Position numbers and translations under genes: made by a program. Below the pieces are notes generated by a model. That model was not told the DNA's origin, ran no database searches, and worked only from the letters and a program-made list of their open reading frames with translations. 64,000 nt of DNA. Source: Trachythela sp. YZ-2020. Taxonomy: Eukaryota > Cnidaria > Anthozoa > Malacalcyonacea > Clavulariidae. The stretch lies in NCBI GenBank assembly GCA_016169945.1, contig JADLSH010000218.1, positions 310,001-374,000 on the forward strand, given 5' to 3'. Shown here piece after piece: positions 40,736-64,000 of the stretch. Every line of letters starts with the position of its first letter. The first letter of the stretch is position 1.

Positions 40736-40737
40736 CA

Positions 40738-41477: not shown

Positions 41478-41508
<31 letters not shown>

Positions 41509-41605: not shown

Positions 41606-42021
41606 CACCTTTTTCAAACTTTGTCCACCAGGAAGCAACGTGCCCAACTCATCATCAGTCACTAAAGCACCCTGCTAAAGCATCCCATTTTTATCATTGC
41701 ACGATTTAATATGTTTTCGTAGCGAATTTAAGGAACTGACATGTAATAATTACAGTAAATTTTAAAATGTATAAACTGTAAACCCCCCCTGACTTTCATG
41801 AGGGTTGAATACAACGTCAACGCCATGCCATGTGCATGGAAAAGAATGTTTCGAGGAAGTGGTTTTTACGTTTCAATTTCTGTAGTAGTGTACATCCCAT
41901 GAACATCAAACGAAATATCAAATATAAACAAACGCGGAAAACATTTTCCTGGGTCGTTTCGTATGGTCTTACACCATACTAAGTCACTTGTCGCGTGGCG
42001 TGCACAAATTAATCTCCTACA

Positions 42022-42766
42022 CAGGGACGTAGCGCAGCATCTGGAGTTTGGGGGGGTGTCAAATAATTTTACCTGAAAATTGAACTTCTATGTTAAAATT
42101 AACCTGAAGTATAGTGATTATAATAGACCTTTTCCTGATTGATTATTAGGGGCGTAGGAAGCTTCTTAAACTTAGGGGGGCCGTCCTCACGAGGCGCCAC
42201 CATGGTTGGCGCCGAGCGGAAAAGTTTTGAAAATTTGGAGCTCTAGATCGTCGGAAATGGTATTTTCGATCAGAGTCTTCTACCTCTTTCGTTAAGCCCT
42301 TTCATTAATTCTTTCATTATGATTTGTGAGTACTGCAATTTTTAAAAATTCAATTATTCTTGGGGTTCGAACGCTATTCCGGCGGGGCCGCGGCCTCCCG
42401 CTTCCTACGCCCTGTTGATTATCATTGTAATACAGAGTTGTTTAACGATAGGAGGGCCTCCCCAGACGATTTTTATATTTTTGAGGCTCCAGGACTACAT
42501 TTCCAGCGTTTTCTGAAGCGATTTTGCAAACGAATTGCGTCCAAATTGACTGTATTTTGCACAAAATTTTAGTTATATGGAGGTTTTTAAAGAGATCAGG
42601 TTCTTTCAAGTCATTTAACATTTAATTTTAGTTATCACTTTACAAAATATAACGACTTTATCCCCCAATTAAATTTACCTTTCAAAAGTTTACCTCGAAT
42701 TTTACCTGATTCTTTTCACCTTTACGGTTAGTGTTACACCAGCACACCCCGCTCGCTACGTCCCTG
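42022..42766. mobile_element. hAT-type non-autonomous element
   Basis: The ends CAGGGACGTAGCG and CGCTACGTCCCTG (the right end has one extra base pattern, 'gctcgctacgtccctg') are inverted. CTCCTACA precedes (42014-42021) and CTCCTACT follows (42767-42774), 7 of 8 matching. A smaller hAT-type MITE is nested at 42,147-42,414. Confidence 0.75.
42147..42414. mobile_element. Nested hAT-type MITE
   Basis: The left end TAGGGGCGTAGGAAGC and the complement of the right end, CAGGGCGTAGGAAGCGGGAG, are inverted. TTGATTAT is at 42139-42146 and 42415-42422, a perfect 8-bp duplication. It is 268 bp and non-coding. Confidence 0.8.
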
Positions 42767-42784
42767 CTCCTACTAGTGTAGATA

Positions 42785-42945
42785 TAGGCAGCTTTACCAA
42801 ACACAACGCGACGTCAAAGAGGACGTGAAAATGGCGTAAAAATGGCGTGGGCACATCCATAGATGGGCATATCACGCCATTTTTACGCCATTTTTACGTC
42901 CTCTTTGACGTCGCGTTGTGTTTGCTAAAGCTGTCTATTATAATA
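42785..42945. mobile_element. Near-perfect palindromic MITE
   Basis: Arms of about 65 bp, starting GGCAGCTTTACCAAACACAA at left and ending ...TTTGCTAAAGCTGTC at right, contain 'gacgtcaaagaggacgt' and doubled 'aaaatggcgt'. TA borders on both sides suggest a Tc1/mariner-type origin. Confidence 0.7.
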
Positions 42946-43061
42946 TTAGTAGCTGCATTTTTTTCCGATTTAAGCTTTGCTTAGAGGTTACCGGGTATTG
43001 ATACAATTTGTCAGTATTAAAATTCCCTTGCTTATTCAAGTACTATAGTAGAGTATAATTA

Positions 43062-43219
43062 ATATAATCAAAAATCAAAAATCAAAAATCAAAAATCAAA
43101 AATCAAAAATCAAAAATCAAAAATCAAAAATCAAAAAATCAAAAAATCAAAAAATCAAAAAATCAAAAAATCAAAAAATCAAAAAATCAAAAAATCAAAA
43201 AATCAAAAAATCAAAAAAT
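43062..43219. repeat. (AAAAATC)n / (AAAAAATC)n subterminal simple repeat
   Basis: Inverted counterpart of 39706-39905, at the right end of the 3.6-kb element: first 7-bp, then 8-bp units. The switch in unit length marks at least two expansion events. Confidence 0.9.
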
Positions 43220-43264
43220 AGAAAATTGTTTTTGTGCTGTCGCGTCTGGGCCGCCGTAGAAAAT

Positions 43265-43596
43265 GCCATTCATATCGCAAACTGCAAAGACGGATAGTTC
43301 ATCGCAAAAGTTCCTAAAGAGTTATTGTATCGAGGTAAGATCTTTAATAATAGTTTAATCTTTTTGTGTGGGGAAATCAAATCGCTTCTTGGTCTACCAA
43401 GTAGTTGCTGTGCCCTTGTTGGCTGCACCCATGAAGAAAGAATCTGAGGTGCCCCTTGGGAAAGTCTAGCAACGAACGGGTTTAGTTGTTGACCACAGCG
43501 ACTTGTCATAACAAGCCTGACGGCAGTTTGCTTACGTAGAATTATATCGAAGTCGTTATTTACAACAGTAAACTAACAGTTTAGTCTATTTGCAGA
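43265..43596 (+). promoter_or_regulatory. Putative 5' leader intron of polymerase copy 1
   Basis: A donor GAG|GTAAGA (GT at 43335-43336) and an acceptor 'gtctatttgcag' ending at 43595, one base before the ATG at 43597, define a possible 261-bp intron in the 5' leader. Only the first array copy has this upstream sequence. No TATA box was identified. Confidence 0.45.
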
Positions 43597-46500
43597 ATGG
43601 ATTACACTTGCAAGACTTGTTCAAAAAAGTTCACCCAACTGAGAAATTTAACTCGTCATGAACGGTCCATTCATGGAGAAAAAAGGTTTTGCTGTGATCA
43701 GTGCAGCGAGTCTTTTACACGGAGAGATGATTTGAAGCGACATCAGAAGCGACACCAAGGAACGATCACACACACCTGCGACAGCTGTATGAAAGAGTTG
43801 TACCGTCGTGATAAATTAGTGGAACATCAAGTTCAATGTCAGGACAACCCTTTGAAAAGAGGACGTGACGAAGATGATAGCAGTCCAGCCTCAAAGAGAG
43901 TACGAGTTGAGAATCAAACTGGAGAAGGCGAACCAGGTAATCAAGTTGAAGAAAACGACAACCCCTGCAGTTCAACAACAGCTTTTGAAGATTCCTTGAA
44001 GAAGATCGAGCTGAAACCACGAAAAGATCAAAAGCAAGATATGTCTCACTTCTTACGTGGCAAGACAAAACCCATATTGAATCACCTTTCGAATGAGTTA
44101 GTAAAGAAAAGAGGCATTAAATGGTTTATCAGCGTTAAAGTACGGTTCATCAAACCTAAACCTGATGGTGAAGATGTGGCTACCGAAACCCATTTCCGCA
44201 GTCTCTGTATGACAACAGTAAACCAGCACGAACTCGATAATCAACTAGACGAAGCCAAGCAGAAAATCACCCAGTCGCTAGTATTATTTCAAAAAGAAGG
44301 AAGCGGTTGGGTCTTAGACGAAATCCTTCATCTTGACCTGAATATAGCTCAATATACTCCAGTAAAAGGATCCAGTTATATCCCTCTTCCCAACAAGCTA
44401 AAGACCAAGAAAGCCATCATTAACGTAAATAATTCTGATAACAAGTGTTTCATGTGGTCGGTCCTTGCCGGTATCCATCCTGTCCCTCGTGATGCTGAAA
44501 GACTCCACCACTATCAGCAGTTTAAAGAGGAACTAGATTTTACTGGTATAGAATTTCCAGTTACTGTTGACAAGATTGGAAAATTCGAACGTCAGAACAA
44601 TATCTCAATCAATGTATTTGGCTTCGAAGATGTACTCTTTCCCATCTACATTACAAAAGAACACTTTGCCACCCACGTGAATCTATTGCTATACTCTCAG
44701 GGAACAACCAGACATTACTGTCTCATTAAAGATCTGAATAAATTCCTCTACAGTCAAAACCGTCGCAAGTGTCGTATGTATTACTGTCGCTACTGTCTGC
44801 ATGGATTTATCCGAGAAGACCTGCTCCAAGACCACGAACCCCACTGCTCACAACACGGTCCACAACGTATTGAACTCCCAAATGAGGACAATGCATTTAT
44901 TTTTCAAAGATTACCACAAGCAGCTGAAAGTGCCTTTGCGATTTATGCCGACTTCGAAAGTCTTACAACCAAGATCGATTCAGCGACTCCAAACCCAAAG
45001 AAATCTTCAACGGAGAAATACCAACATCATCAACCTTGTGGATTTTCATATATTGTGATATCTGAAGTTGACAAGTATTCTAAACCACCTGTTGTTTATC
45101 GTGGAGAAGATGCAGTCGACAAGTTCCTGGAGTGTTTAGAAGAAGAGCAAGAGTATATTCAAGAGAAACTTGATTTTGTCGAGCCTATGCGCATCGAAAG
45201 AGAAGAAGAGCAGGCGTTTCAAGACGCTGTAGACTGTCATATTTGTGGATATGAGTTGGGAGCTGATCGTGTTCGTGACCATTGTCATCTCACCGGAAAG
45301 TTTCGTGGTGCTGCCCACAACGACTGCAACTTGAACTATAGTTTTACCGGCCGAATTCCCGTCATTCTTCACAATCCACGCGGTTATGATTCCCATCTGA
45401 TTATGCAAGGCCTTGGTAAACTCAAAGATAAGAAGATCAACTGTATCCCGAATAACACCGAGAAGTACATCTCTTTCTCCATCGATAATTTGGATTTTAT
45501 CGACTCTCTACAATTTATGAATGCATCGCTGGAAAAGTTAGTATCGAATCTAGCCAACGACGGTGTTCATAAGTTCCCAACTCTAAAGAAATACATTGAC
45601 AGCGACAAAGTTCCCCTTCTTCTAAGAAAAGGAGTTTATCCTTATGACCTCTTCCAACGGGTGAATTCGACTGGCTAACCGACCAAGAGATTGCAGAACT
45701 TGACATCACAAACGTTGCAGATGATAACGAAGAAGGCTACATATTAGAAGTGGACCTTCACTATCCCTCCGAATTACACGATCTTCACAATGATTACCCT
45801 CTAGCACCTGAGAAAATGAAGATTTCTCCAGAGATGTTGTCACCATATTGTCAAGAACTGTCGGAATGTTTGAATCTTCGTCGTGGTGCTGTGCCTAAAT
45901 TGGTTCCGAATCTTCAAGACAAGACCAACTACGTGGTCCATTACCGCAACTTAAAGCAATACCTGGCACTTGGTATGAAATTGACAAAGATCCACCGCGT
46001 TTTAGTATTCCAGCAAAGTCCATGGCTAAAGACCTATATCGACTTTAATACCGAGAAACGAAAGCACGCAGCAAACGACTTCGAGAAAGATTTCTACAAG
46101 TTGATGAACAACTCGGTATTCGGTAAAACCATGGAGAATTTGAGGAAACGTGTCAACGTCAAGCTCGTCAACAACAAGGCTAAACTATCCAAATTAACAG
46201 CATCCCCATCCTTTGACTTCTTCCGCATATTTTCCGAGGATTTAGCAGCTGTGAATTTGAAGAAGACGAAGCTCTATCTAAACCGTCCCATTTACGTTGG
46301 ATTCGCCATTCTAGATCTTTCCAAAGTACTCATGTACCAGTTTCATTATGAGTATATGAAACACAAGTATGACACTAACGCCAAGGTGTTGTTCACAGAC
46401 ACGGACAGCCTCTGTTATGAGATCAAGACTAGCGACGTTTATCAAGACATGCTGCAGGACATATAACTTTTTGACACTTCCGAGTATGCACAAGACCATC

Positions 46501-46886
46501 CATTGCACAGCCTAACGAACAAGAAAGTCCTTGGAAAGATGAAAGACGAAACGCATGGTATCCCCATCCAAGAGTTCGTTGGTTTGAGACCAAAGATGTA
46601 CTCTATTCTCTATACCGAAAACGACAAGCAGGTGGAGAAGAAAACGGCCAAAGGAATAAAGAAGTCGGTGACGAAACGAAAGCTTCGACATGCAAATTAC
46701 AAGGAATGTTTGTTTGAGAAGAGACAGACAATGGCTAGCATGAATCAAATTCGAAGTGAAGGCCATGAAATCTACTCGATCAAATTGAATAAAATAGGTC
46801 TTAGTCCTTATGACGACAAACGCTATATTTTAAACGATGGAATGAACACGCTCGCTCATGGACATTATGAAACCAGAAGAACATAA
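43597..46886 (+). pseudogene. Polinton-like family-B DNA polymerase, array copy 1 (short type, with zinc fingers)
   Basis: The first frame (43597-45678, 693 codons) starts with two C2H2 fingers (residues 4-27 and 32-53) and a third C-x2-C module (61-81), then a basic NLS-like segment (KRGRDEDD...SKRVRV). A middle region with DNKCFMWS and RHYCLIKDL follows, then CRYCLHGF...H..HC. Next come Exo I (YADFES), an endonuclease VII-type HNH insert (CHICGYEL...DHCHLTGKFRGAAH..CN) and Exo II (HNPRGYDSHLI). At about 45650 a 498-bp deletion removes Exo III and motif A. The frame from 45750 carries motif B (KLMNNSVFGK) and motif C (FTDTDS) but has a TAA at 46464-46466; it continues in frame to 46886. AATAAA is at 46920-46925. 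Known role of the family: protein-primed element replication. This copy cannot make an active polymerase. Confidence 0.85.
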
Positions 46887-47178
46887 ACCAAGCGAAATGA
46901 AAACTATCGTATTGTTTATAATAAACCTTTTATTATTGATGATTACAAAGCACTTGATATTAAAGACAGTTAAAAATTAAATTTTAAAGTTATACATGTT
47001 TAAATATTGTTAAAAATACAGTTGAAATAAATTTGTTTAAAATGTTTTCTAAGTCCATTTATTTTCGATCTTCAGTTTGTGGTAATGATCCAGATTTACC
47101 CCTGTCTACTCTTCCAACAGCACGATTTACTTTTTGCATTTTTTTTGCGTTAAGAGCCAAGCTTCCTTTGCGTTCTGT

Positions 47179-47508
47179 TCATTTATATCTTATTACAAGA
47201 AGTTCTTTTTCGATTCTTTTACACCAGGACGTCTTTGCTTCTTTCCTATCACGAACAATCATCACTTTGGATCGTTTGAACACCATAGAAGGCTTGTTTC
47301 TTTGCTTACGTAAGCATTCCGGCATTTTGTGCAATGTGGTTTTATTTTGACGTTTAACATTTCTAAGGCTTCTTCTTTGATCTGAAATAGCTCTTTTTCG
47401 ATCCGATGGTCCGTTTGTTCTAACTGATTTAGCGCGTACTGAACCAAAAATGTTTCTTTTTGACGATCTCTTACGAGAAAGCGAATTGTGTTTACTCTTT
47501 CCAGGCAT
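47179..47508 (-). CDS. Small highly basic protein, unit 1
   Basis: A 109-codon frame with a genuine ATG (47508-47506), convergent with the polymerase gene. It is very rich in Lys and Arg (SRKRSSKRN, DRKRAISDQRRS, RKQRNKPS). A pyrimidine run ending in GTGTCTTCAG stands just before the ATG on the minus strand and looks like a splice acceptor, so this may be a downstream exon. Nucleic-acid binding or a nuclear/virion-core role would suit the charge, but I recognise no family. An overlapping 88-codon frame starts upstream on a non-ATG codon. It is intact in all four units although the polymerase is broken. Confidence 0.45.
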   Translation of the reverse strand: MPGKSKHNSLSRKRSSKRNIFGSVRAKSVRTNGPSDRKRAISDQRRSLRNVKRQNKTTLHKMPECLRKQRNKPSMVFKRSKVMIVRDRKEAKTSWCKRIEKELLVIRYK

Positions 47509-47514
47509 GTCTTA

Positions 47515-47870
47515 AACTGAAGACACAAAAAAAAAGCAGTGCGCTTAAAGCGAAAAGAAATATTTTCGAAATTACTCTAACGTAGTTCAGCTCAGGTTGT
47601 TTTGACTGTAATATTTGGCGTTGGTGTTTGTGTGCGCATGGTATTTTTCACTGTAAAAGAAGGTAATTTTCCTTAAACTGCGCGAATATTTTGAAAGTTA
47701 TGCAATAAGTGTGAGAAGACAACAATGAATACCTGCGTAATTTCTTTAACTAAAACAAACCGTCTGAATATTTAGTAGCTACCACCGCTTGACTACATGC
47801 ATAAACACATAGGTTAACGTTTGAAACAATTTATTTCTTTAAGTATAACAATTTTACACAAATAAACAGT
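47515..47870. promoter_or_regulatory. Divergent intergenic spacer, unit 1
   Basis: A non-coding segment between the minus-strand basic ORF and the plus-strand TATA box. It contains 'gcgcttaaagcg', a short palindrome, at about 47541-47552. It repeats in every unit. It presumably held promoters for two divergent genes in the parental element. Confidence 0.4.
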
Positions 47871-47877
47871 TATAAAA
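47871..47877 (+). promoter_or_regulatory. TATA box, polymerase copy 2
   Basis: TATAAAA, 34 nt upstream of the ATG at 47905, in an otherwise non-coding stretch created at the repeat junction. Confidence 0.5.
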
Positions 47878-47904
47878 GCAGGCTTTTGTGGGCAAAATAT
47901 ACGA

Positions 47905-50900
47905 ATGTGCGCAAGTATATATGCCAAAAAAATGCAAACAAGCAGAGTAAATTACAAATATCAGCACGCGTCGCTTAGTCGAATGCACATATTTTTTGAC
48001 GACAACCCCTGCAGTTCAACAACAGCTTTTGAAGATTCCTTGAAGAAGATCGAGCTGAAACCACGAAAAGATCAAAAGCAAGATATGTCTCACTTCTTAC
48101 GTGGCAAGACAAAACCCATATTGAATCACCTTTCGAATGAGTTAGTAAAGAAAAGAGGCATTAAATGGTTTATCAGCGTTAAAGTACGGTTCATCAAACC
48201 TAAACCTGATGGTGAAGATGTGGCTACCGAAACCCATTTCCGCAGTCTCTGTATGACAACAGTAAACCAGCACGAACTCGATAATCAACTAGACGAAGCC
48301 AAGCAGAAAATCACCCAGTCGCTAGTATTATTTCAAAAAGAAGGAAGCGGTTGGGTCTTAGACGAAATCCTTCATCTTGACCTGAGTATAGCTCAATATA
48401 CTCCAGTAAAAGGATCCAGTTATATCCCTCTTCCCAACAAGCTAAAGACCAAGAAAGCCATCATTAACGTAAATAATTCTGATAACAAGTGTTTCATGTG
48501 GTCGGTCCTTGCCGGTATCCATCCTGTCCTCGTGATGCTGAAAGACTCCACCACTATCAGCAGTTTAAAGAGGAACTAGATTTTACTGGTATAGAATTTC
48601 CAGTTACTGTTGACAAGATTGGAAAATTCGAACGTCAGAACAATATCTCAATCAATGTATTTGGCTTCGAAGATGTACTCTTTCCCATCTACATTACAAA
48701 AGAACACTTTGCCACCCACGTGAATCTATTGCTATACTCTCAGGGAACAACCAGACATTACTGTCTCATTAAAGATCTGAATAAATTCCTCTACAGTCAA
48801 AACCGTCGCAAGTGTCGTATGTATTACTGTCGCTACTGTCTGCATGGATTTATCCGAGAAGACCTGCTCCAAGACCACGAACCCCACTGCTCACAACACG
48901 GTCCACAACGTATTGAACTCCCAAATGAGGACAATGCATTTCTATTTTTCAAAGATTACCACAAGCAGCTGAAAGTGCCCTTTGCGATTTATGCCGACTT
49001 CGAAAGTCTTACAACCAAGATCGATTCAGCGACTCCAAACCCAAAGAAATCTTCAACGGAGAAATACCAACATCATCAACCTTGTGGATTTTCATATATT
49101 GTGATATCTGAAGTTGACAAGTATTCTAAACCACCTGTTGTTTATCGTGGAGAAGATGCAGTCGACAAGTTCCTGGAGTGTTTAGAAGAAGAGCAAGAGT
49201 ATATTCAAGAGAAACTTGATTTTGTCGAGCCTATGCGCATCGAAAGAGAAGAAGAGCAGGCGTTTCAATACGCTGTAGACTGTCATATTTGTGGATATAA
49301 GTTGGGAGCTGATCGTGTTCGTGACCATTGTCATCTCACCGGAAAGTTTCGTGGTGCTGCCCACAACGACTGCAACTTGAACTATAGTTTTACCGGCCGA
49401 ATTCCCGTCATTCTTCACAATCCACGCGGTTATGATTCCCATCTGATTATGCAAGGCCTTGGTAAACTCAAAGATAAGAAGATCAACTGTATCCCGAATA
49501 ACACCGAGAAGTACATCTCTTTCTCCATCGATAATTTGGATTTTATCGACTCTCTACAATTTATGAATGCATCGCTGGAAAAGTTAGTATCGAATCTAGC
49601 CAACGACGGTGTTCATAAGTTCCCAACTCTAAAGAAATACATTGACAGCGACAAAGTTCCCCTTCTTCTAAGAAAAGGAGTTTATCCTTATGACCATATG
49701 GATTGTACAGACCGATTTGAAGAACCAACCCTACCACCAAAAGAGTCCTTCTACAACATACTGAACGATGAACAAATTTCAGATGAGGATTACGCCCACG
49801 CAACGAGTGTGTTTCATGGCTTCGCGTGTCAGAACATGGGTGATTACCATGACTTATACTTAAAGTCAGATGTTCTACTTCTCGCGGATGTGTTTGAAAA
49901 TTTCCGAAGCGTGTGTCTGAAAGCGTACAACTTGGATCCTTGTCACTTCTATACTAGTCCTGGTTTGGCTTGGCAAGCGTGTTTGAAAATGACTGACGCG
50001 AACTGGAACTTCTGACTGATCCAGATATGTACTTGTTTATTGAAGAAGGCCTCCGTGGTGGAATTTCGATGATAAGTAATCGATTTAGCAAGGCGAACAA
50101 CCCCTATGTTCCTAATTACGATCCCACGCAAGAGACCTCGTATGTGATGTATTTCGATGCTAACAACCTCTACGGCTGGGCTATGTCGCAACCTCTTCCA
50201 ACGGGTGAATTCGACTGGCTAACCGACCAAGAGATTGCAGAACTTGACATCACAAACGTTGCAGATGATAACGAAGAAGGCTACATATTAGAAGTGGACC
50301 TTCACTATCCTCCGAATTACACGATCTTCACAATGATTACCCTCTAGCACCTGAGAAAATGAAGATTTCTCCAGAGATGTTGTCACCATATTGTCAAGAA
50401 CTGTCGGAATGTTTGAATCTTCGTCGTGGTGCTGTGCCTAAATTGGTTCCGAATCTTCAAGACAAGACCAACTACGTGGTCCATTACCGCAACTTAAAGC
50501 AATACCTGGCACTTGGTATGAAATTGACAAAGATCCACCGCGTTTTAGTATTCCAGCAAAGTCCATGGCTAAAGACCTATATCGACTTTAATACCGAGAA
50601 ACGAAAGCACGCAGCAAACGACTTCGAGAAAGATTTCTACAAGTTGATGAACAACTCGGTATTCGGTAAAACCATGGAGAATTTGAGGAAACGTGTCAAC
50701 GTCAAGCTCGTCAACAACAAGGCTAAACTATCCAAATTAACAGCATCCCCATCCTTTGACTTCTTCCGCATATTTTCCGAGGATTTAGCAGCTGTGAATT
50801 TGAAGAAGACGAAGCTCTATCTAAACCGTCCCATTTACGTTGGATTCGCCATTCTAGATCTTTCCAAAGTACTCATGTACCAGTTTCATTATGAGTATAT

Positions 50901-51429
50901 GAAACACAAGTATGACACTAACGCCAAGTTGTTGTTCACAGACACGGACAGCCTCTGTTATGAGATCAAGACTAGCGACGTTTATCAAGACATGCTGCAG
51001 GACATAGAACTTTTTGACACTTCCGAGTATGCACAAGACCATCCATTGCACAGCCTAACGAACAAGAAAGTCCTTGGAAAGATGAAAGACGAAACGCATG
51101 GTATCCCCATCCAAGAGTTCGTTGGTTTGAGACCAAAGATGTACTCTATTCTCTATACCGAAAACGACAAGCAGGTGGAGAAGAAAACGGCCAAAGGAAT
51201 AAAGAAGTCAGTGACGAAACGAAAGCTTCGACATGCAAATTACAAGGAATGTTTGTTTGAGAAGAGACAGACAATGGCTAGCATGAATCAAATTCGAAGT
51301 GAAGGCCATGAAATCTACTCGATCAAATTGAATAAAGTAGGTCTTAGTCCTTATGACGACAAACGCTATATTTTAAACGATGGAATGAACACGCTCGCTC
51401 ATGGACATTATGAAACCAGAAGAACATAA
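47905..51429 (+). pseudogene. Polinton-like DNA polymerase, array copy 2 (long type)
   Basis: The zinc fingers are replaced by about 32 junction-encoded residues starting MCASIYAKK, which run in frame into the shared DNPCSST region. All core motifs are present: Exo I at about 48990-49010, HNH insert 49281-49382, Exo II about 49414-49446, Exo III (YLKSDVLLLAD) about 49856-49890, motif A (FDANNLYGWAM) about 50150-50182, motif B about 50640-50672, motif C about 50935-50957. Breaks: a one-base loss near 48527 (CCCT to CCT), a frame change near 50000 shared by all long copies, and a one-base loss near 50310. No stop interrupts the last frame (50359-51429). AATAAA at 51463-51468. This is the most informative copy of the family, but not intact. 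Confidence 0.85.
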
Positions 51430-51716
51430 ACCAAGCGAAATGAAAACTATCGTATTGTTTATAATAAACCTTTTATTATTGATGATTACAAAGCACTTGA
51501 TATTAAAGACAGTTAAAAATTTTAAAGTTATACATGTTTAAATATTGTTAAAAATACAGTTGAAATAAATTTGTTTAAAATGTTTTCTAAGTCCATTTAT
51601 TTTCGATCTTCAGTTTGTGGTAATGATCCAGATTTACCCCTGTCTACTCTTCCAACAGCACGATTTACTTTTTGCATTTTTTTTGCGTTAAGAGCCAAGC
51701 TTCCTTTGCGTTCTGT

Positions 51717-52046
51717 TCATTTATATCTTATTACAAGAAGTTCTTTTTCGATTCTTTTACACCAGGACGTCTTTTCTTCTTTCCTATCACGAACAATCAT
51801 CACTTTGGATCGTTTGAACACCATAGAAGGCTTGTTTCTTTGCTTACGTAAGCATTCCGGCATTTTGTGCAATGTGGTTTTATTTTGACGTTTAACATTT
51901 CTAAGGCTTCTTCTTTGATCTGAAATAGCTCTTTTTCGATCCGATGGTCCGTTTGTTCTAACTGATTTAGCGCGTACTGAACCAAAAATGTTTCTTTTTG
52001 ACGATCTCTTACGAGAAAGCGAATTGTGTTTACTCTTTCCAGGCAT
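51717..52046 (-). CDS. Small highly basic protein, unit 2
   Basis: Second copy of the 109-codon basic ORF. It differs from unit 1 by Ala to Glu (KEEKTSW for KEAKTSW). The frame and the acceptor-like tract before the ATG are preserved. Confidence 0.45.
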   Translation of the reverse strand: MPGKSKHNSLSRKRSSKRNIFGSVRAKSVRTNGPSDRKRAISDQRRSLRNVKRQNKTTLHKMPECLRKQRNKPSMVFKRSKVMIVRDRKEEKTSWCKRIEKELLVIRYK

Positions 52047-52410
52047 GTCTTAAACTGAAGACACAAAAAAAAAGCAGTGCGCTTAAAGCGAAAAGAAATA
52101 TTTTCGAAATTACTCTAACGTAGTTCAGCTCAGGTTGTTTTGACTGTAATATTTGGCGTTGGTGTTTGTGTGCGCATGGTATTTTTCACTGTAAAAGAAG
52201 GTAATTTTCCTTAAACTGCGCGAATATTTTGAAAGTTATGCAATAAGTGTGAGAAGACAACAATGAATACCTGCGTAATTTCCCTTTAACTAAAACAAAC
52301 CGTCTGAATATTTAGTAGCTACCACCGCTTGACTACATGCATAAACACATAGGTTAACGTTTGAAACAATTTATTTCTTTAAGTATAACAATTTTACACA
52401 AATAAACAGT

Positions 52411-52417
52411 TATAAAA
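52411..52417 (+). promoter_or_regulatory. TATA box, polymerase copy 3
   Basis: TATAAAA, 34 nt before the ATG at 52445; the spacing is the same as in the other junctions. Confidence 0.5.
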
Positions 52418-52444
52418 GCAGGCTTTTGTGGGCAAAATATACGA

Positions 52445-55400
52445 ATGTGCGCAAGTATATATGCCAAAAAAATGCAAACAAGCAGAGTAAATTACAAATA
52501 TCAGCACGCGTCGCTTAGTCGAATGCACATATTTTTTGACGACAACCCCTGCAGTTCAACAACAGCTTTTGAAGATTCCTTGAAGAAGATCGAGCTGAAA
52601 CCACGAAAAGATCAAAAGCAAGATATGTCTCACTTCTTACGTGGCAAGACAAAACCCATATTGAATCACCTTTCGAATGAGTTAGTAAAGAAAAGAGGCA
52701 TTAAATGGTTTATCAGCGTTAAAGTACGGTTCATCAAACCTAAACCTGATGGTGAAGATGTGGCTACCGAAACCCATTTCCGCAGTCTCTGTATGACAAC
52801 AGTAAACCAGCACGAACTCGATAATCAACTAGACGAAGCCAAGCAGAAAATCACCCAGTCGCTAGTATTATTTCAAAAAGAAGGAAGCGGTTGGGTCTTA
52901 GACGAAATCCTTCATCTTGACCTGAATATAGCTCAATATACTCCAGTAAAAGGATCCAGTTATATCCCTCTTCCCAACAAGCTAAAGACCAAGAAAGCCA
53001 TCATTAACGTAAATAATTCTGATAACAAGTGTTTCATGTGGTCGGTCCTTGCCGGTATCCATCCTGTCCTCGTGATGCTGAAAGACTCCACCACTATCAG
53101 CAGTTTAAAGAGGAACTAGATTTTACTGGTATAGAATTTCCAGTTACTGTTGACAAGATTGGAAAATTCGAACGTCAGAACAATATCTCAATCAATGTAT
53201 TTGGCTTCGAAGATGTACTCTTTCCCATCTACATTACAAAGAACACTTTGCCACCCACGTGAATCTATTGCTATACTCTCAGGGAACAACCAGACATTAC
53301 TGTCTCATTAAAGATCTGAATAAATTCCTCTACAGTCAAAACCGTCGCAAGTGTCGTATGTATTACTGTCGCTACTGTCTGCATGGATTTATCCGAGAAG
53401 ACCTGCTCCAAGACCACGAACCCCACTGCTCACAACACGGTCCACAACGTATTGAACTCCCAAATGAGGACAATGCATTTCTATTTTCAAAGATTACCAC
53501 AAGCAGCTGAAAGTGCCCTTTGCGATTTATGCCGACTGAAAGTCTTACAACCAAGATCGATTCAGCGACTCCAAACCCAAAGAAATCTTCAACGGAGAAA
53601 TACCAACATCATCAACCTTGTGGATTTTCATATATTGTGATATCTGAAGTTGACAAGTATTCTAAACCACCTGTTGTTTATCGTGGAGAAGATGCAGTCG
53701 ACAAGTTCCTGGAGTGTTTAGAAGAAGAGCAAGAGTATATTCAAGAGAAACTTGATTTTGTCGAGCCTATGCGCATCGAAAGAGAAGAAGAGCAGGCGTT
53801 TCAAGACGCTGTAGACTGTCATATTTGTGGATATGAGTTGGGAGCTGATCGTGTTCGTGACCATTGTCATCTCACCGGAAAGTTTCGTGGTGCTGCCCAC
53901 AACGACTGCAACTTGAACTATAGTTTTACCGGCCGAATTCCCGTCATTCTTCACAATCCACGCGGTTATGATTCCCATCTGATTATGCAAGGCCTTGGTA
54001 AACTCAAAGATAAGAAGATCAACTGTATCCCGAATAACACCGAGAAGTACATCTCTTTCTCCATCGATAATTTGGATTTTATCGACTCTCTACAATTTAT
54101 GAATGCATCGCTGGAAAAGTTAGTATCGAATCTAGCCAACGACGGTGTTCATAAGTTCCCAACTCTAAAGAAATACATTGACAGCGACAAAGTTCCCCTT
54201 CTTCTAAGAAAAGGAGTTTATCCTTATGACCTCTTCCAACGGGTGAATTCGACTGGCTAACCGACCAAGAGATTGCAGAACTTGACATCACAAACGTTGC
54301 AGATGATAACGAAGAAGGCTACATATTAGAAGTGGACCTTCACTATCCCTCCGAATTACACGATCTTCACAATGATTACCCTCTAGCACCTGAGAAAATG
54401 AAGATTTCTCCAGAGATGTTGTCACCATATTGTCAAGAACTGTCGGAATGTTTGAATCTTCGTCGTGGTGCTGTGCCTAAATTGGTTCCGAATCTTCAAG
54501 ACAAGACCAACTACGTGGTCCATTACCGCAACTTAAAGCAATACCTGGCACTTGGTATGAAATTGACAAAGATCCACCGCGTTTTAGTATTCCAGCAAAG
54601 TCCATGGCTAAAGACCTATATCGACTTTAATACCGAGAAACGAAAGCACGCAGCAAACGACTTCGAGAAAGATTTCTACAAGTTGATGAACAACTCGGTA
54701 TTCGGTAAAACCATGGAGAATTTGAGGAAACGTGTCAACGTCAAGCTCGTCAACAACAAGGCTAAACTATCCAAATTAACAGCATCCCCATCCTTTGACT
54801 TCTTCCGCATATTTTCCGAGGATTTAGCAGCTGTGAATTTGAAGAAGACAAGCTCTATCTAAACCGTCCCATTTACGTTGGATTCGCCATTCTAGATCTT
54901 TCCAAAGTACTCATGTACCAGTTTCATTATGAGTATATGAAACACAAGTATGACACTAACGCCAAGTTGTTGTTCACAGACACGGACAGCCTCTGTTATG
55001 AGATCAAGACTAGCGACGTTTATCAAGACATGCTGCAGGACATATAACTTTTTGACACTTCCGAGTATGCACAAGACCATCCATTGCACAGCCTAACGAA
55101 CAAGAAAGTCCTTGGAAAGATGAAAGACGAAACGCATGGTATCCCCATCCAAGAGTTCGTTGGTTTGAGACCAAAGATGTACTCTATTCTCTATACCGAA
55201 AACGACAAGCAGGTGGAGAAGAAAACGGCCAAAGGAATAAAGAAGTCGGTGACGAAACGAAAGCTTCGACATGCAAATTACAAGGAATGTTTGTTTGAGA
55301 AGAGACAGACAATGGCTAGCATGAATCAAATTCGAAGTGAAGGCCATGAAATCTACTCGATCAAATTGAATAAAATAGGTCTTAGTCCTTATGACGACAA

Positions 55401-55467
55401 ACGCTATATTTTAAACGATGGAATGAACACGCTCGCTCATGGACATTATGAAACCAGAAGAACATAA
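52445..55467 (+). pseudogene. Polinton-like DNA polymerase, array copy 3 (short type)
   Basis: The most damaged copy. Breaks in order: one-base loss near 53067 (as in copy 2), one-base loss near 53241 (AAAAG to AAAG), one-base loss near 53484 in a T-run, a two-base loss at about 53538 in the Exo I codons, the 498-bp deletion at about 54235 removing Exo III and motif A, a one-base loss near 54849, and the TAA at 55044-55046 shared with copy 1. The HNH insert, Exo II and motifs B and C remain readable in separate frames. It has the junction-encoded N-terminus. Confidence 0.85.
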
Positions 55468-55759
55468 ACCAAGCGAAATGAAAACTATCGTATTGTTTAT
55501 AATAAACCTTTTATTATTGATGATTACAAAGCACTTGATATTAAAGACAGTTAAAAATTAAATTTTAAAGTTATACATGTTTAAATATTGTTAAAAATAC
55601 AGTTGAAATAAATTTGTTTAAAATGTTTTCTAAGTCCATTTATTTTCGATCTTCAGTTTGTGGTAATGATCCAGATTTACCCCTGTCTACTCTTCCAACA
55701 GCACGATTTACTTGTTGCATTTTTTTTGCGTTAAGAGCCAAGCTTCCTTTGCGTTCTGT

Positions 55760-56089
55760 TCATTTATATCTTATTACAAGAAGTTCTTTTTCGATTCTTT
55801 TACACCAGGACGTCTTTGCTTCTTTCCTATCACGAACAATCATCACTTTGGATCGTTTGAACACCATAGAAGGCTTGTTTCTTTGCTTACGTAAGCATTC
55901 CGGCATTTTGTGCAATGTGGTTTTATTTTGACGTTTAACATTTCTAAGGCTTCTTCTTTGATCTGAAATAGCTCTTTTTCGATCCGATGGTCCGTTTTTT
56001 CTAACTGATTTAGCGCGTACTGAACCAAAAATGTTTCTTTTTGACGATCTCTTACGAGAAAGCGAATTGTGTTTACTCTTTCCAGGCAT
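55760..56089 (-). CDS. Small highly basic protein, unit 3
   Basis: Third copy of the 109-codon basic ORF, with Thr to Lys in VRKNGPS compared with VRTNGPS and the unit-1 form KEAKTSW. Intact. Confidence 0.45.
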   Translation of the reverse strand: MPGKSKHNSLSRKRSSKRNIFGSVRAKSVRKNGPSDRKRAISDQRRSLRNVKRQNKTTLHKMPECLRKQRNKPSMVFKRSKVMIVRDRKEAKTSWCKRIEKELLVIRYK

Positions 56090-56453
56090 GTCTTAAACTG
56101 AAGACACAAAAAAAAAGCAGTGCGCTTAAAGCGAAAAGAAATATTTTCGAAATTACTCTAACGTAGTTCAGCTCAGGTTGTTTTGACTGTAATATTTGGC
56201 GTTGGTGTTTGTGTGCGCATGGTATTTTTCACTGTAAAAGAAGGTAATTTTCCTTAAACTGCGCGAATATTTTGAAAGTTATGCAATAAGTGTGAGAAGA
56301 CAACAATGAATACCTGCGTAATTTCCCTTTAACTAAAACAAACCGTCTGAATATTTAGTAGCTACCACCGCTTGACTACATGCATAAACACATAGGTTAA
56401 CGTTTGAAACAATTTATTTCTTTAAGTATAACAATTTTACACAAATAAACAGT

Positions 56454-56460
56454 TATAAAA
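56454..56460 (+). promoter_or_regulatory. TATA box, polymerase copy 4
   Basis: TATAAAA, 34 nt before the ATG at 56488. Confidence 0.5.
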
Positions 56461-56487
56461 GCAGGCTTTTGTGGGCAAAATATACGA

Positions 56488-59400
56488 ATGTGCGCAAGTA
56501 TATATGCCAAAAAAATGCAAACAAGCAGAGTAAATTACAAATATCAGCACGCGTCGCTTAGTCGAATGCACATATTTTTTGACGACAACCCCTGCAGTTC
56601 AACAACAGCTTTTGAAGATTCCTTGAAGAAGATCGAGCTGAAACCACGAAAAGATCAAAAGCAAGATATGTCTCACTTCTTACGTGGCAAGACAAAACCC
56701 ATATTGAATCACCTTTCGAATGAGTTAGTAAAGAAAAGAGGCATTAAATGGTTTATCAGCGTTAAAGTACGGTTCATCAAACCTAAACCTGATGGTGAAG
56801 ATGTGGCTACCGAAACCCATTTCCGCAGTCTCTGTATGACAACAGTAAACCAGCACGAACTCGATAATCAACTAGACGAAGCCAAGCAGAAAATCACCCA
56901 GTCGCTAGTATTATTTCAAAAAGAAGGAAGCGGTTGGGTCTTAGACGAAATCCTTCATCTTGACCTGAGTATAGCTCAATATACTCCAGTAAAAGGATCC
57001 AGTTATATCCCTCTTCCCAACAAGCTAAAGACCAAGAAAGCCATCATTAACGTAAATAATTCTGATAACAAGTGTTTCATGTGGTCGGTCCTTGCCGGTA
57101 TCCATCCTGTCCCTCGTGATGCTGAAAGACTCCACCACTATCAGCAGTTTAAAGAGGAACTAGATTTTACTGGTATAGAATTTCCAGTTACTGTTGACAA
57201 GATTGGAAAATTCGAACGTCAGAACAATATCTCAATCAATGTATTTGGCTTCGAAGATGTACTCTTTCCCATCTACATTACAAAAGAACACTTTGCCACC
57301 CACGTGAATCTATTGCTATACTCAGGGAACAACCAGACATTACTGTCTCATTAAAGATCTGAATAAATTCCTCTACAGTCAAAACCGTCGCAAGTGTCGT
57401 ATGTATTACTGTCGCTACTGTCTGCATGGATTTATCCGAGAAGACCTGCTCCAAGACCACGAACCCCACTGCTCACAACACGGTCCACAACGTATTGAAC
57501 TCCCAAATGAGGACAATGCATTTCTATTTTCAAAGATTACCACAAGCAGCTGAAAGTGCCCTTTGCGATTTATGCCGACTTCGAAAGTCTTACAACCAAG
57601 ATCGATTCAGCGACTCCAAACCCAAAGAAATCTTCAACGGAGAAATACCAACATCATCAACCTTGTGGATTTTCATATATTGTGATATCTGAAGTTGACA
57701 AGTATTCTAAACCACCTGTTGTTTATCGTGGAGAAGATGCAGTCGACAAGTTCCTGGAGTGTTTAGAAGAAGAGCAAGAGTATATTCAAGAGAAACTTGA
57801 TTTTGTCGAGCCTATGCGCATCGAAAGAGAAGAAGAGCAGGCGTTTCAATACGCTGTAGACTGTCATATTTGTGGATATAAGTTGGGAGCTGATCGTGTT
57901 CGTGACCATTGTCATCTCACCGGAAAGTTTCGTGGTGCTGCCACAACGACTGCAACTTGAACTATAGTTTTACCGGCCGAATTCCCGTCATTCTTCACAA
58001 TCCACGCGGTTATGATTCCCATCTGATTATGCAAGGCCTTGGTAAACTCAAAGATAAGAAGATCAACTGTATCCCGAATAACACCGAGAAGTACATCTCT
58101 TTCTCCATCGATAATTTGGATTTTATCGACTCTCTACAATTTATGAATGCATCGCTGGAAAAGTTAGTATCGAATCTAGCCAACGACGGTGTTCATAAGT
58201 TCCCAACTCTAAAGAAATACATTGACAGCGACAAAGTTCCCCTTCTTCTAAGAAAAGGAGTTTATCCTTATGACCATATGGATTGTACAGACCGATTTGA
58301 AGAACCAACCCTACCACCAAAAGAGTCCTTCTACAACATACTGAACGATGAACAAATTTCAGATGAGGATTACGCCCACGCAACGAGTGTGTTTCATGGC
58401 TTCGCGTGTCAGAACATGGGTGATTACCATGACTTATACTTAAAGTCAGATGTTCTACTTCTCGCGGATGTGTTTGAAAATTTCCGAAGCGTGTGTCTGA
58501 AAGCGTACAACTTGGATCCTTGTCACTTCTATACTAGTCCTGGTTTGGCTTGGCAAGCGTGTTTGAAAATGACTGACGCGAACTGGAACTTCTGACTGAT
58601 CCAGATATGTACTTGTTTATTGAAGAAGGCCTCCGTGGTGGAATTTCGATGATAAGTAATCGATTTAGCAAGGCGAACAACCCCTATGTTCCTAATTACG
58701 ATCCCACGCAAGAGACCTCGTATGTGATGTATTTCGATGCTAACAACCTCTACGGCTGGGCTATGTCGCAACCTCTTCCAACGGGTGAATTCGACTGGCT
58801 AACCGACCAAGAGATTGCAGAACTTGACATCACAAACGTTGCAGATGATAACGAAGAAGGCTACATATTAGAAGTGGACCTTCACTATCCCTCCGAATTA
58901 CACGATCTTCACAATGATTACCCTCTAGCACCTGAGAAAATGAAGATTTCTCCAGAGATGTTGTCACCATATTGTCAAGAACTGTCGGAATGTTTGAATC
59001 TTCGTCGTGGTGCTGTGCCTAAATTGGTTCCGAATCTTCAAGACAAGACCAACTACGTGGTCCATTACCGCAACTTAAAGCAATACCTGGCACTTGGTAT
59101 GAAATTGACAAAGATCCACCGCGTTTTAGTATTCCAGCAAAGTCCATGGCTAAAGACCTATATCGACTTTAATACCGAGAAACGAAAGCACGCAGCAAAC
59201 GACTTCGAGAAAGATTTCTACAAGTTGATGAACAACTCGGTATTCGGTAAAACCATGGAGAATTTGAGGAAACGTGTCAACGTCAAGCTCGTCAACAACA
59301 AGGCTAAACTATCCAAATTAACAGCATCCCCATCCTTTGACTTCTTCCGCATATTTTCCGAGGATTTAGCAGCTGTGAATTTGAAGAAGACGAAGCTCTA

Positions 59401-60010
59401 TCTAAACCGTCCCATTTACGTTGGATTCGCCATTCTAGATCTTTCCAAAGTACTCATGTACCAGTTTCATTATGAGTATATGAAACACAAGTATGACACT
59501 AACGCCAAGTTGTTGTTCACAGACACGGACAGCCTCTGTTATGAGATCAAGACTAGCGACGTTTATCAAGACATGCTGCAGGACATAGAACTTTTTGACA
59601 CTTCCGAGTATGCACAAGACCATCCATTGCACAGCCTAACGAACAAGAAAGTCCTTGGAAAGATGAAAGACGAAACGCATGGTATCCCCATCCAAGAGTT
59701 CGTTGGTTTGAGACCAAAGATGTACTCTATTCTCTATACCGAAAACGACAAGCAGGTGGAGAAGAAAACGGCCAAAGGAATAAAGAAGTCAGTGACGAAA
59801 CGAAAGCTTCGACATGCAAATTACAAGGAATGTTTGTTTGAGAAGAGACAGACAATGGCTAGCATGAATCAAATTCGAAGTGAAGGCCATGAAATCTACT
59901 CGATCAAATTGAATAAAGTAGGTCTTAGTCCTTATGACGACAAACGCTATATTTTAAACGATGGAATGAACACGCTCGCTCATGGACATTATGAAACCAG
60001 AAGAACATAA
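56488..60010 (+). pseudogene. Polinton-like DNA polymerase, array copy 4 (long type)
   Basis: Junction-encoded start, then the first frame runs 288 codons to 57354. Breaks: a two-base loss near 57322 (CTCTCAGG to CTCAGG), a one-base loss near 57530 in a T-run, a one-base loss near 57941 (GCCCAC to GCCAC) inside the HNH insert, and the shared frame change near 58580. From 58607 the frame is open for 467 codons to 60010 and includes motif A, motif B and motif C uninterrupted, the longest intact catalytic polymerase segment in the array. Confidence 0.85.
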
Positions 60011-60297
60011 ACCAAGCGAAATGAAAACTATCGTATTGTTTATAATAAACCTTTTATTATTGATGATTACAAAGCACTTGATATTAAAGACAGTTAAAAA
60101 TTTTAAAGTTATACATGTTTAAATATTGTTAAAAATACAGTTGAAATAAATTTGTTTAAAATGTTTTCTAAGTCCATTTATTTTCGATCTTCAGTTTGTG
60201 GTAATGATCCAGATTTACCCCTGTCTACTCTTCCAACAGCACGATTTACTTTTTGCATTTTTTTTGCGTTAAGAGCCAAGCTTCCTTTGCGTTCTGT

Positions 60298-60627
60298 TCA
60301 TTTATATCTTATTACAAGAAGTTCTTTTTCGATTCTTTTACACCAGGACGTCTTTTCTTCTTTCCTATCACGAACAATCATCACTTTGGATCGTTTGAAC
60401 ACCATAGAAGGCTTGTTTCTTTGCTTACGTAAGCATTCCGGCATTTTGTGCAATGTGGTTTTATTTTGACGTTTAACATTTCTAAGGCTTCTTCTTTGAT
60501 CTGAAATAGCTCTTTTTCGATCCGATGGTCCGTTTGTTCTAACTGATTTAGCGCGTACTGAACCAAAAATGTTTCTTTTTGACGATCTCTTACGAGAAAG
60601 CGAATTGTGTTTACTCTTTCCAGGCAT
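60298..60627 (-). CDS. Small highly basic protein, unit 4
   Basis: Fourth copy of the 109-codon basic ORF, identical in the checked positions to unit 2 (KEEKTSW, VRTNGPS). Intact. Confidence 0.45.
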   Translation of the reverse strand: MPGKSKHNSLSRKRSSKRNIFGSVRAKSVRTNGPSDRKRAISDQRRSLRNVKRQNKTTLHKMPECLRKQRNKPSMVFKRSKVMIVRDRKEEKTSWCKRIEKELLVIRYK

Positions 60628-60991
60628 GTCTTAAACTGAAGACACAAAAAAAAAGCAGTGCGCTTAAAGCGAAAAGAAATATTTTCGAAATTACTCTAAC
60701 GTAGTTCAGCTCAGGTTGTTTTGACTGTAATATTTGGCGTTGGTGTTTGTGTGCGCATGGTATTTTTCACTGTAAAAGAAGGTAATTTTCCTTAAACTGC
60801 GCGAATATTTTGAAAGTTATGCAATAAGTGTGAGAAGACAACAATGAATACCTGCGTAATTTCCCTTTAACTAAAACAAACCGTCTGAATATTTAGTAGC
60901 TACCACCGCTTGACTACATGCATAAACACATAGGTTAACGTTTGAAACAATTTATTTCTTTAAGTATAACAATTTTACACAAATAAACAGT

Positions 60992-60998
60992 TATAAAA
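60992..60998 (+). promoter_or_regulatory. TATA box, polymerase copy 5
   Basis: TATAAAA, 34 nt before the ATG at 61026. Confidence 0.5.
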
Positions 60999-61025
60999 GC
61001 AGGCTTTTGTGGGCAAAATATACGA

Positions 61026-64000
61026 ATGTGCGCAAGTATATATGCCAAAAAAATGCAAACAAGCAGAGTAAATTACAAATATCAGCACGCGTCGCTTAGT
61101 CGAATGCACATATTTTTTGACGACAACCCCTGCAGTTCAACAACAGCTTTTGAAGATTCCTTGAAGAAGATCGAGCTGAAACCACGAAAAGATCAAAAGC
61201 AAGATATGTCTCACTTCTTACGTGGCAAGACAAAACCCATATTGAATCACCTTTCGAATGAGTTAGTAAAGAAAAGAGGCATTAAATGGTTTATCAGCGT
61301 TAAAGTACGGTTCATCAAACCTAAACCTGATGGTGAAGATGTGGCTACCGAAACCCATTTCCGCAGTCTCTGTATGACAACAGTAAACCAGCACGAACTC
61401 GATAATCAACTAGACGAAGCCAAGCAGAAAATCACCCAGTCGCTAGTATTATTTCAAAAAGAAGGAAGCGGTTGGGTCTTAGACGAAATCCTTCATCTTG
61501 ACCTGAATATAGCTCAATATACTCCAGTAAAAGGATCCAGTTATATCCCTCTTCCCAACAAGCTAAAGACCAAGAAAGCCATCATTAACGTAAATAATTC
61601 TGATAACAAGTGTTTCATGTGGTCGGTCCTTGCCGGTATCCATCCTGTCCCTCGTGATGCTGAAAGACTCCACCACTATCAGCAGTTTAAAGAGGAACTA
61701 GATTTTACTGGTATAGAATTTCCAGTTACTGTTGACAAGATTGGAAAATTCGAACGTCAGAACAATATCTCAATCAATGTATTTGGCTTCGAAGATGTAC
61801 TCTTTCCCATCTACATTACAAAAGAACACTTTGCCACCCACGTGAATCTATTGCTATACTCAGGGAACAACCAGACATTACTGTCTCATTAAAGATCTGA
61901 ATAAATTCCTCTACAGTCAAAACCGTCGCAAGTGTCGTATGTATTACTGTCGCTACTGTCTGCATGGATTTATCCGAGAAGACCTGCTCCAAGACCACGA
62001 ACCCCACTGCTCACAACACGGTCCACAACGTATTGAACTCCCAAATGAGGACAATGCATTTCTATTTTTCAAAGATTACCACAAGCAGCTGAAAGTGCCC
62101 TTTGCGATTTATGCCGACTTCGAAAGTCTTACAACCAAGATCGATTCAGCGACTCCAAACCCAAAGAAATCTTCAACGGAGAAATACCAACATCATCAAC
62201 CTTGTGGATTTTCATATATTGTGATATCTGAAGTTGACAAGTATTCTAAACCACCTGTTGTTTATCGTGGAGAAGATGCAGTCGACAAGTTCCTGGAGTG
62301 TTTAGAAGAAGAGCAAGAGTATATTCAAGAGAAACTTGATTTTGTCGAGCCTATGCGCATCGAAAGAGAAGAAGAGCAGGCGTTTCAATACGCTGTAGAC
62401 TGTCATATTTGTGGATATAAGTTGGGAGCTGATCGTGTTCGTGACCATTGTCATCTCACCGGAAAGTTTCGTGGTGCTGCCACAACGACTGCAACTTGAA
62501 CTATAGTTTTACCGGCCGAATTCCCGTCATTCTTCACAATCCACGCGGTTATGATTCCCATCTGATTATGCAAGGCCTTGGTAAACTCAAAGATAAGAAG
62601 ATCAACTGTATCCCGAATAACACCGAGAAGTACATCTCTTTCTCCATCGATAATTTGGATTTTATCGACTCTCTACAATTTATGAATGCATCGCTGGAAA
62701 AGTTAGTATCGAATCTAGCCAACGACGGTGTTCATAAGTTCCCAACTCTAAAGAAATACATTGACAGCGACAAAGTTCCCCTTCTTCTAAGAAAAGGAGT
62801 TTATCCTTATGACCATATGGATTGTACAGACCGATTTGAAGAACCAACCCTACCACCAAAAGAGTCCTTCTACAACATACTGAACGATGAACAAATTTCA
62901 GATGAGGATTACGCCCACGCAACGAGTGTGTTTCATGGCTTCGCGTGTCAGAACATGGGTGATTACCATGACTTATACTTAAAGTCAGATGTTCTACTTC
63001 TCGCGGATGTGTTTGAAAATTTCCGAAGCGTGTGTCTGAAAGCGTACAACTTGGATCCTTGTCACTTCTATACTAGTCCTGGTTTGGCTTGGCAAGCGTG
63101 TTTGAAAATGACTGACGCGAACTGGAACTTCTGACTGATCCAGATATGTACTTGTTTATTGAAGAAGGCCTCCGTGGTGGAATTTCGATGATAAGTAATC
63201 GATTTAGCAAGGCGAACAACCCCTATGTTCCTAATTACGATCCCACGCAAGAGACCTCGTATGTGATGTATTTCGATGCTAACAACCTCTACGGCTGGGC
63301 TATGTCGCAACCTCTTCCAACGGGTGAATTCGACTGGCTAACCGACCAAGAGATTGCAGAACTTGACATCACAAACGTTGCAGATGATAACGAAGAAGGC
63401 TACATATTAGAAGTGGACCTTCACTATCCCTCCGAATTACACGATCTTCACAATGATTACCCTCTAGCACCTGAGAAAATGAAGATTTCTCCAGAGATGT
63501 TGTCACCATATTGTCAAGAACTGTCGGAATGTTTGAATCTTCGTCGTGGTGCTGTGCCTAAATTGGTTCCGAATCTTCAAGACAAGACCAACTACGTGGT
63601 CCATTACCGCAACTTAAAGCAATACCTGGCACTTGGTATGAAATTGACAAAGATCCACCGCGTTTTAGTATTCCAGCAAAGTCCATGGCTAAAGACCTAT
63701 ATCGACTTTAATACCGAGAAACGAAAGCACGCAGCAAACGACTTCGAGAAAGATTTCTACAAGTTGATGAACAACTCGGTATTCGGTAAAACCATGGAGA
63801 ATTTGAGGAAACGTGTCAACGTCAAGCTCGTCAACAACAAGGCTAAACTATCCAAATTAACAGCATCCCCATCCTTTGACTTCTTCCGCATATTTTCCGA
63901 GGATTTAGCAGCTGTGAATTTGAAGAAGACGAAGCTCTATCTAAACCGTCCCATTTACGTTGGATTCGCCATTCTAGATCTTTCCAAAGTACTCATGTAC
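61026..64000 (+). pseudogene. Polinton-like DNA polymerase, array copy 5 (long type), cut by window end
   Basis: Junction-encoded start. Breaks: a two-base loss near 61860 and a one-base loss near 62480 (both also in copy 4), and the shared frame change near 63120. The T-run that is short in copies 3 and 4 is full length here. The last frame opens at 63146 and is still open at 64000, past motif B (about 63765); motif C and the 3' end lie beyond the window. Confidence 0.85.

Follow-up and report, generated by a model that had tools for sequence, protein, structure and literature searches.

A palindromic Polinton-type insertion with a tandemly repeated polymerase arm in the genome of Trachythela sp. 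YZ-2020

Vertebrate Mavericks, as far as the available text of PMC8097293 describes them, measure 12.7–24.6 kb, end in (AGT)2//(ACT)2, are flanked by 6-bp target-site duplications (TSDs), carry terminal inverted repeats (TIRs) of 46–1,447 bp and hold eight conserved genes. Galileo and Tetris are presented in the accessible parts of PMC3573991 and PMC4079207 as elements of the foldback type whose long TIRs contain internal repeats; Galileo is placed in the P superfamily by its transposase, and Tetris lacks conserved open reading frames (ORFs) and has TSDs of 8–10 bp. Here, we describe a 64,000-nucleotide stretch of the Trachythela sp. YZ-2020 assembly GCA_016169945.1 (contig JADLSH010000218.1, hereafter C174, positions 310001–374000; "the window"), compared with the 578-Mb genome in 396 contigs. 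In the window lies one arm, the left, of one mirrored insertion of 53,101 bp. The insertion has ends of Polinton type and is flanked by a 6-bp target duplication, and its left arm contains tandem polymerase-bearing units.

The insertion spans C174:348519–401619, its left end lies at window position 38519, and it measures ~49.5 kb without a nested transposon. Both ends read AGTAGTAGGGGAAG, which is of the (AGT)2 type, and each is flanked by GTTTTT, with the left copy at 38513–38518 and the right copy just past C174:401619. The outer TIR (38519–39659, plus strand), beginning with AGTAGTAGGGGAAG, is mirrored at C174:401619–400483 with 99.0% identity. The 5′ arm part (43259–43954, plus strand), which occurs once per arm and contains the polymerase start (ATG at 43597, C2H2 zinc fingers), is mirrored at C174:400488–399793 with 100% identity. 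These two parts are separated in the left arm by the nested ~3.6-kb transposon (39660–43258; TIR TACGGCGGCCCAGACGCGAC, TSD GAAAAT), which is missing from the right arm. The original prediction had described a tandem array beginning at 43956; the array is indeed there, but the element starts 5.4 kb earlier, behind the nested transposon. The array does not stand free: it forms the internally repeated arm of a palindromic element that has ends and a target duplication of its own. A free-standing tandem of whole Polintons was ruled out by the one TSD around the whole and the mirrored arms, and a symmetric truncation at 43259 was ruled out since the outer repeat is present, separated by the nested transposon. 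Inside the nested transposon lie a 14-bp minisatellite of 33 copies and, in subterminal position, (GATTTTTT)n arrays that are inverted relative to each other.

The array continues beyond the window end into the inverted structure. A 501-bp probe gave 10 C174 matches among the best 40 of 79, of which seven lie on the plus strand (354000–379720) and are followed by three on the minus strand. By piecewise comparison, the left arm consists of the outer repeat, the 5′ gene part and short (S) and long (L) units arranged as S, L, S, L, L, S, followed by a degenerate seventh (u1–u7); in the inverted right arm, the outer repeat and the 5′ part are followed in turn by one short, one long and one extra-long unit. 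The extra-long unit (C174:386197–391218) contains two copies of a ~496-bp block, at 83% and 89%, which have diverged beyond the rest of the unit.

Five units lie in the window, all on the plus strand, with starts at 43955, 47999, 52539, 56582 and 61120: unit 1 (43955–47998, short), unit 2 (47999–52538, long), unit 3 (52539–56581, short), unit 4 (56582–61119, long) and unit 5 (61120–64000, long). The lengths of the first four (4044, 4540, 4043 and 4538 bp) agree with the first prediction, as do the sequence of forms (S, L, S, L, L) and the partial nature of the fifth; unit 5 ends at the window edge, yet it has the ~496-bp block that distinguishes the two forms. This single block, which holds the polymerase motif A region, is missing after 45649 and 54231. 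Matches longer than 1 kb between units show 99.4–99.7% identity, and the 99.7% identity between 43955–54231 and 52539–62814 is expected under unequal exchange of S-L pairs. At the unit junction (47990–48005, plus strand), the inner end of the arm (...TTTTTTG-AC) is fused to the polymerase gene (...AC-GACAACCCC) at about codon 120, with two bases (AC) in common. This junction is missing from the inner arm ends of seven other elements, where 12 of the 14 positions were readable. The deletion junction of the short form (45641–45656, plus strand) has three bases (ACC) in common.

In the first part of the unit, u1–u6 and the three right-arm units differ from one another by 0–5 substitutions and from C274, another locus of the same family, by 104–108; in the second part, u1–u4 and two right-arm units differ by 0–6. 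When the outermost units of the two arms, both short forms, are compared with each other, one part of the unit shows 0 substitutions in the first case and 1 in the second part. These low counts indicate that the arms and most units were recently shared.

The units carry what is, by predicted fold and sequence similarity, a protein-primed-type family B polymerase. In the AlphaFold model of its C-terminal half (predicted local distance difference test, pLDDT, 76; predicted template-modelling score, pTM, 0.70), phi29 polymerase took the first six of 412 PDB rows of a fold search with a template-modelling score (TM-score) of about 0.5, and the PHROG profiles for endonuclease VII and DNA polymerase matched at 1e-4 or better. 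C2H2 zinc fingers are present, and an endonuclease VII-like stretch falls just under the Pfam cut-off. Against this assignment, Pfam PF03175 gave no match in the window pieces. An OTU-like N-terminal PolB domain and a hexon gene characterise adintoviruses; Pfam found no OTU match in the polymerase. A PDB sequence search with a polymerase piece gave no match. The best protein match of that piece was Dendronephthya gigantea LOC114544475 (91%), which points to a probable octocoral host. In unit 1, the N-terminal polymerase ORF (43597–45678, plus strand) covers the zinc fingers, the endonuclease VII-like stretch and the start of the polymerase/exonuclease region, and runs out past the ~496-bp deletion. 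The C-terminal half is open in unit 4 (58607–60010, plus strand) and includes DANNLYG, KLMNNSVFGKT and TDTDS, which we take to be polymerase motifs.

Over nine elements of the family, substitutions at codon positions 1, 2 and 3 number 1112, 533 and 4821 (36 pairs). Codons with a single change include 4224 synonymous and 919 non-synonymous cases, which gives a crude ratio of non-synonymous to synonymous rates (omega) of ~0.07 with an assumed kappa of 2 and 36 non-independent pairs. To judge from these sequence counts, polymerase change among the nine elements is constrained. A small basic antisense ORF (MPGKSKHNS...; 47179–47508, minus strand), repeated in units 2–4, has a weak coding signal (omega ~0.58 in frame; other frames, 0.90 and 1.38) and gave no match in one arm of C61. 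A central zinc-finger ORF, with omega ~0.52, is likewise weakly supported.

No whole polymerase gene was read in any C174 unit. The gene start occurs in C174 only in the two outermost units, both short forms without the motif A block, and the long units keep the three motifs and lack the zinc-finger start; the gene start and the motif A block are thus never in one unit, and no unit read has the whole gene. For this reason, the C174 array looks like a passive product. That its copy number was selected, for example for polymerase dosage, is highly improbable; the motifs kept in the long units speak for it, and this division of the gene between unit forms speaks against it.

The element is a member of a family that typically takes the form of a 10–14 kb near-palindrome with a polymerase gene in each arm. 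Inverted pairs were found at at least 22 loci: C174, C82 (two), C83, C274 (two), C384, C118, C294, C230, C310, C195, C61, C259, C192, C20, C117, C237, C89, C333, C267 and C22. This and the other locus counts are not totals, because the four genome scans scored the best 40 of 79, 484, 64 and 164 candidates. The five elements with located ends measure 12.9–14.1 kb, and their mirrored arms of about 5.8–6.8 kb together take up 86–96% of this length. Arms were compared at seven loci besides C174 (C82, C274, C384, C83, C118, C61 and C259), where arm-to-arm substitutions amount to 0.04–0.98%; in C192 they reach 1.4% over a 1.2-kb stretch, and the right arm of C83 has a deletion. C20, C192 and C310 are likewise mirrored, and C192 was therefore rejected as an unmirrored autonomous element. 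Among the eight elements checked for ends (these seven and C174), six have perfect 6-bp target duplications in their flanks (C82 GAGGTC, C274 TATGTT, C384 AAGCAA, C118 ATTGTT, C259 GCTATC and C174 GTTTTT), and the true ends of C61 and C83 were not located. The termini are all of the AGT type, reading AGTAGTAGGGG in C174, C82, C384 and C259 and AGTAGGG in C274 and C118. The centres are homologous between elements and are self-inverted in C20 (1406 bp, 89%), C83 (1041 bp, 96%) and C61 (84%). In a tree of arms, from which the row C192L was left out as a repeat of the right arm, the arms of the same element are sisters for C82, C384, C259, C61 and C310. No array like that of C174 was found at any other locus among the matches listed.

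Several further loci have related outer repeats. Short outer-TIR pairs of 2.9–3.6 kb at C150:3615913–3618821, C30:1842087–1845656 and C241:1179622–1182929 are perhaps deletion derivatives without polymerase. At C310:1459500–1487128, outer TIRs 27.6 kb apart surround a mirrored element with the usual centre. At C267:6649411–6694681, ~20 kb separate an outer TIR and 5′ part from inverted polymerase copies, and an ATPase match follows ~18 kb further on; this region may involve a nested canonical Polinton.

A canonical Polinton is present in the same genome at C340:412980–428650, with a 378-bp TIR (95%), the TSD TTGAAT, an integrase with rve and chromo domains, an ATPase and capsid-like ORFs. These last are presumably MCP-like and penton-like, judging from their position; Pfam gave no match above the cut-off for them. 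Its single polymerase lies near the right end and is spread over more than one reading frame. The C174 polymerase is 33% identical to it in the N part and 50% over 436 aa in the C part, which, together with the phi29 fold matches, bears out the predicted Polinton-type polymerase. The palindromes resemble C340 in the 6-bp TSD, the related polymerase and the termini (23 of its first 26 terminal bases are identical to C82), whereas C340 has its short TIR, one polymerase and the remaining genes.

Those remaining genes were searched for with the C340 proteins. In the 22 palindromic-locus pieces (233,101 bp including flanks), the integrase gave 0 matches, while the query found itself; a very distant integrase could escape such a search. 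The ATPase (a 108-aa piece with a positive control; a 76-aa piece had none) and the capsid-like proteins likewise gave no match in the 22 pieces, of which 21 were matched by each of two C340 polymerase pieces. In the window, no match to the C340 integrase, ATPase pieces or capsid-like proteins was obtained, which agrees with the predicted lack of these genes, although more distant versions could escape and no search was aimed at a protease. All scored genome matches to the Pox_A32 packaging ATPase were over the cut-off, and by eye none of these best 150 of 696 candidates lies within a mapped palindromic element. The Pfam double jelly-roll (DJR)-like capsid domain had no match in the genome and its control likewise gave none, and a viral-contig scan found no relative. 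As it fails strict Polinton membership on the integrase, we call the C174 element a non-autonomous Polinton derivative.

The likeness to vertebrate Mavericks, within the available account (PMC8097293), thus concerns the 6-bp TSD, the (AGT)2//(ACT)2 ends, the protein-primed-type PolB and a similar size in the five elements with located ends. In contrast to the Maverick TIRs, the arms here are several kilobases long with a polymerase in each, and no integrase, ATPase or capsid-like gene was found in place of the eight conserved genes. Galileo and Tetris share with C174 very long TIRs whose internal tandem repeats vary through recombination; the partial descriptions at hand (PMC3573991, PMC4079207) make no mention of a polymerase in the arms, and neither the transposase of the former nor the ORF-less state and 8–10 bp TSDs of the latter fit the present family. 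The C174 element behaves as a foldback would, but its ends and TSD are of Polinton type, so that it can be seen as a foldback structure on a Polinton basis. In the journals within reach of our search, which left out most subscription titles, no published title was found that dealt with palindromic Polintons or with a polymerase located in the TIRs of a Polinton.

We favor, with a probability of about 0.72, the reading that the C174 element is a palindromic, integrase-less Polinton derivative whose array was seeded by duplication and deletion and then shaped by unequal recombination. Copying of the linear element would start at its two identical ends and use the polymerase that it encodes, and canonical Polintons of the same genome would supply in trans the integrase for its insertion. 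A displaced strand that snaps back at the centre could give rise to the palindrome; as each half has one end, a palindrome would give two origins from one half. Adeno-associated virus is a parvovirus and is not known to be protein-primed. Its snapback defective genomes (PMC8235507) are also mirror-image, but they belong to defective particles and do not form a genomic lineage. A tandem duplication that led from the inner arm back to a point within the polymerase gene, with 2-bp microhomology, would have produced the long seed unit, and a deletion with 3-bp microhomology the short one; each looks like a single event because the unit boundaries agree. Unequal homologous exchange of units and S-L pairs, plus exchange between arms, would then spread the units, with S-L-S-L-L-S-(degenerate) in the left arm and S-L-XL (extra-long) in the right as the outcome. 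Unequal exchange, one of the routes originally proposed, is supported in this way, and rolling-circle replication is not needed.

A number of observations pull the other way. The number and order of the units come from the assembly alone, and C174:379677–385370 is diverged and indel-rich (rich in insertions and deletions), perhaps poorly assembled. In the second part of the unit, the extra-long right unit is 8–11 substitutions from u1–u4 and the two right-arm units, and u6 is 10–15 from the same units and 18 from the extra-long one; u7 differs by 46–52 in the first part. Frame-breaking indels relative to the reference frame occur in 16 of 17 polymerase copies and a stop in four of the 17, so that present activity is unsupported. 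Ten loci matched by polymerase or 5′ probes have no inverted partner among the matches listed (C376, C203, C298, C33, C15, C155, C161, C126 and two in C267), and for eight of these ten hits, C298 and C33 being outside the count and C267 having two, the contig extends well past the hit. Eight more loci among the matches listed have a single outer repeat only (C315, C389, C151, C105, C273, C109, C62 and C230:3493317). The centres of C82, C118 and C174 are self-inverted over a short core only, self-comparison found no self-inverted centre in C274, C259 and C384, and the arms of C118 and C274 mix in the tree and are not separated by element. Finally, the Pox_A32 match at C267:6694247 is separated by ~18 kb from a polymerase pair for which no outer end was located.

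The palindromes might instead be independent decay products of autonomous single-polymerase Polintons, formed by foldback-type TIR extension, which we consider doubtful. TIR extension and tandem repeats within TIRs are shown by Galileo and Tetris in the portions available (PMC3573991, PMC4079207), selection could act on an unseen master copy, and the ten partnerless loci would fit. However, the centres are homologous across elements whose polymerases differ by up to ~9%, which is unexpected under independent decay, and the single canonical Polinton read, C340, has a polymerase that is only 33% (N part) and 50% (C part) identical.

It is improbable that the array is an assembly artefact, in which a normal ~13-kb palindrome was expanded by mis-joined near-identical reads. 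The units are >99% identical, no second array is among the loci listed, and indels exceed substitutions, as in noisy long-read assemblies (u1 and u3 differ in the first part by 0 substitutions and 6 indels); we read this excess within C174 as in large part assembly error, to which real decay may also contribute. Yet in both arms the S and L classes are set apart by the ~496-bp block and by substitutions, the unit junction is specific to C174 among the inner ends read, and the right arm differs in order and has an extra-long unit. Mis-assembly, raised in the original prediction, may have changed how many units the array has or how they are ordered; it does not easily explain the whole element, given the target duplication at both ends, the mirrored arms and the 21 other inverted-pair loci.

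No more probable is amplification before insertion, by rolling-circle or concatemeric extrachromosomal replication, followed by insertion of one ~50-kb molecule. The single TSD pair around the whole and the near-identity of the two outermost short units speak for it; against it, a single type of monomer would be expected from a rolling circle instead of alternating classes and unequal arms, and even without its nested transposon the element exceeds the ~45 kb hypothesised, in the accessible text of the review PMC6431247, as the upper limit for protein-primed replicons.

Beyond the palindromic derivative seeded by duplication and deletion, we tentatively propose, at somewhat less than even odds, that the family is a long-lived palindromic, polymerase-only Polinton lineage. 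It would replicate as a mirror-image linear molecule with one protein-primed origin and one polymerase per half. Snap-back or panhandle copying would keep its arms identical, insertion would be borrowed from canonical Polintons, and arrays would be a by-product. If so, it would be a selfish replicon parasitising Polintons: a protein-primed transposon family that shed all but the polymerase and two small ORFs, took on palindromic form and spread while its polymerase stayed strongly constrained. It would then show how capsid-less, integrase-less replicons originate from Polintons, offer a natural system for the tolerance and copying of 10–50 kb palindromes in animal genomes, and provide an arm-to-arm clock for dating insertions. 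Repeat annotation may label such palindromic loci "Polinton fragments".

Two other features lie in the window outside the element. At 12871–16341 (plus strand), a 1156-aa open frame has a NACHT/NB-ARC-like NTPase and TPR repeats and is nephrocystin-3-like. At 25844–27147, tandem ~124-bp units occur in about 9.4 copies, with a higher period of 380 and a strong skew of C over G.

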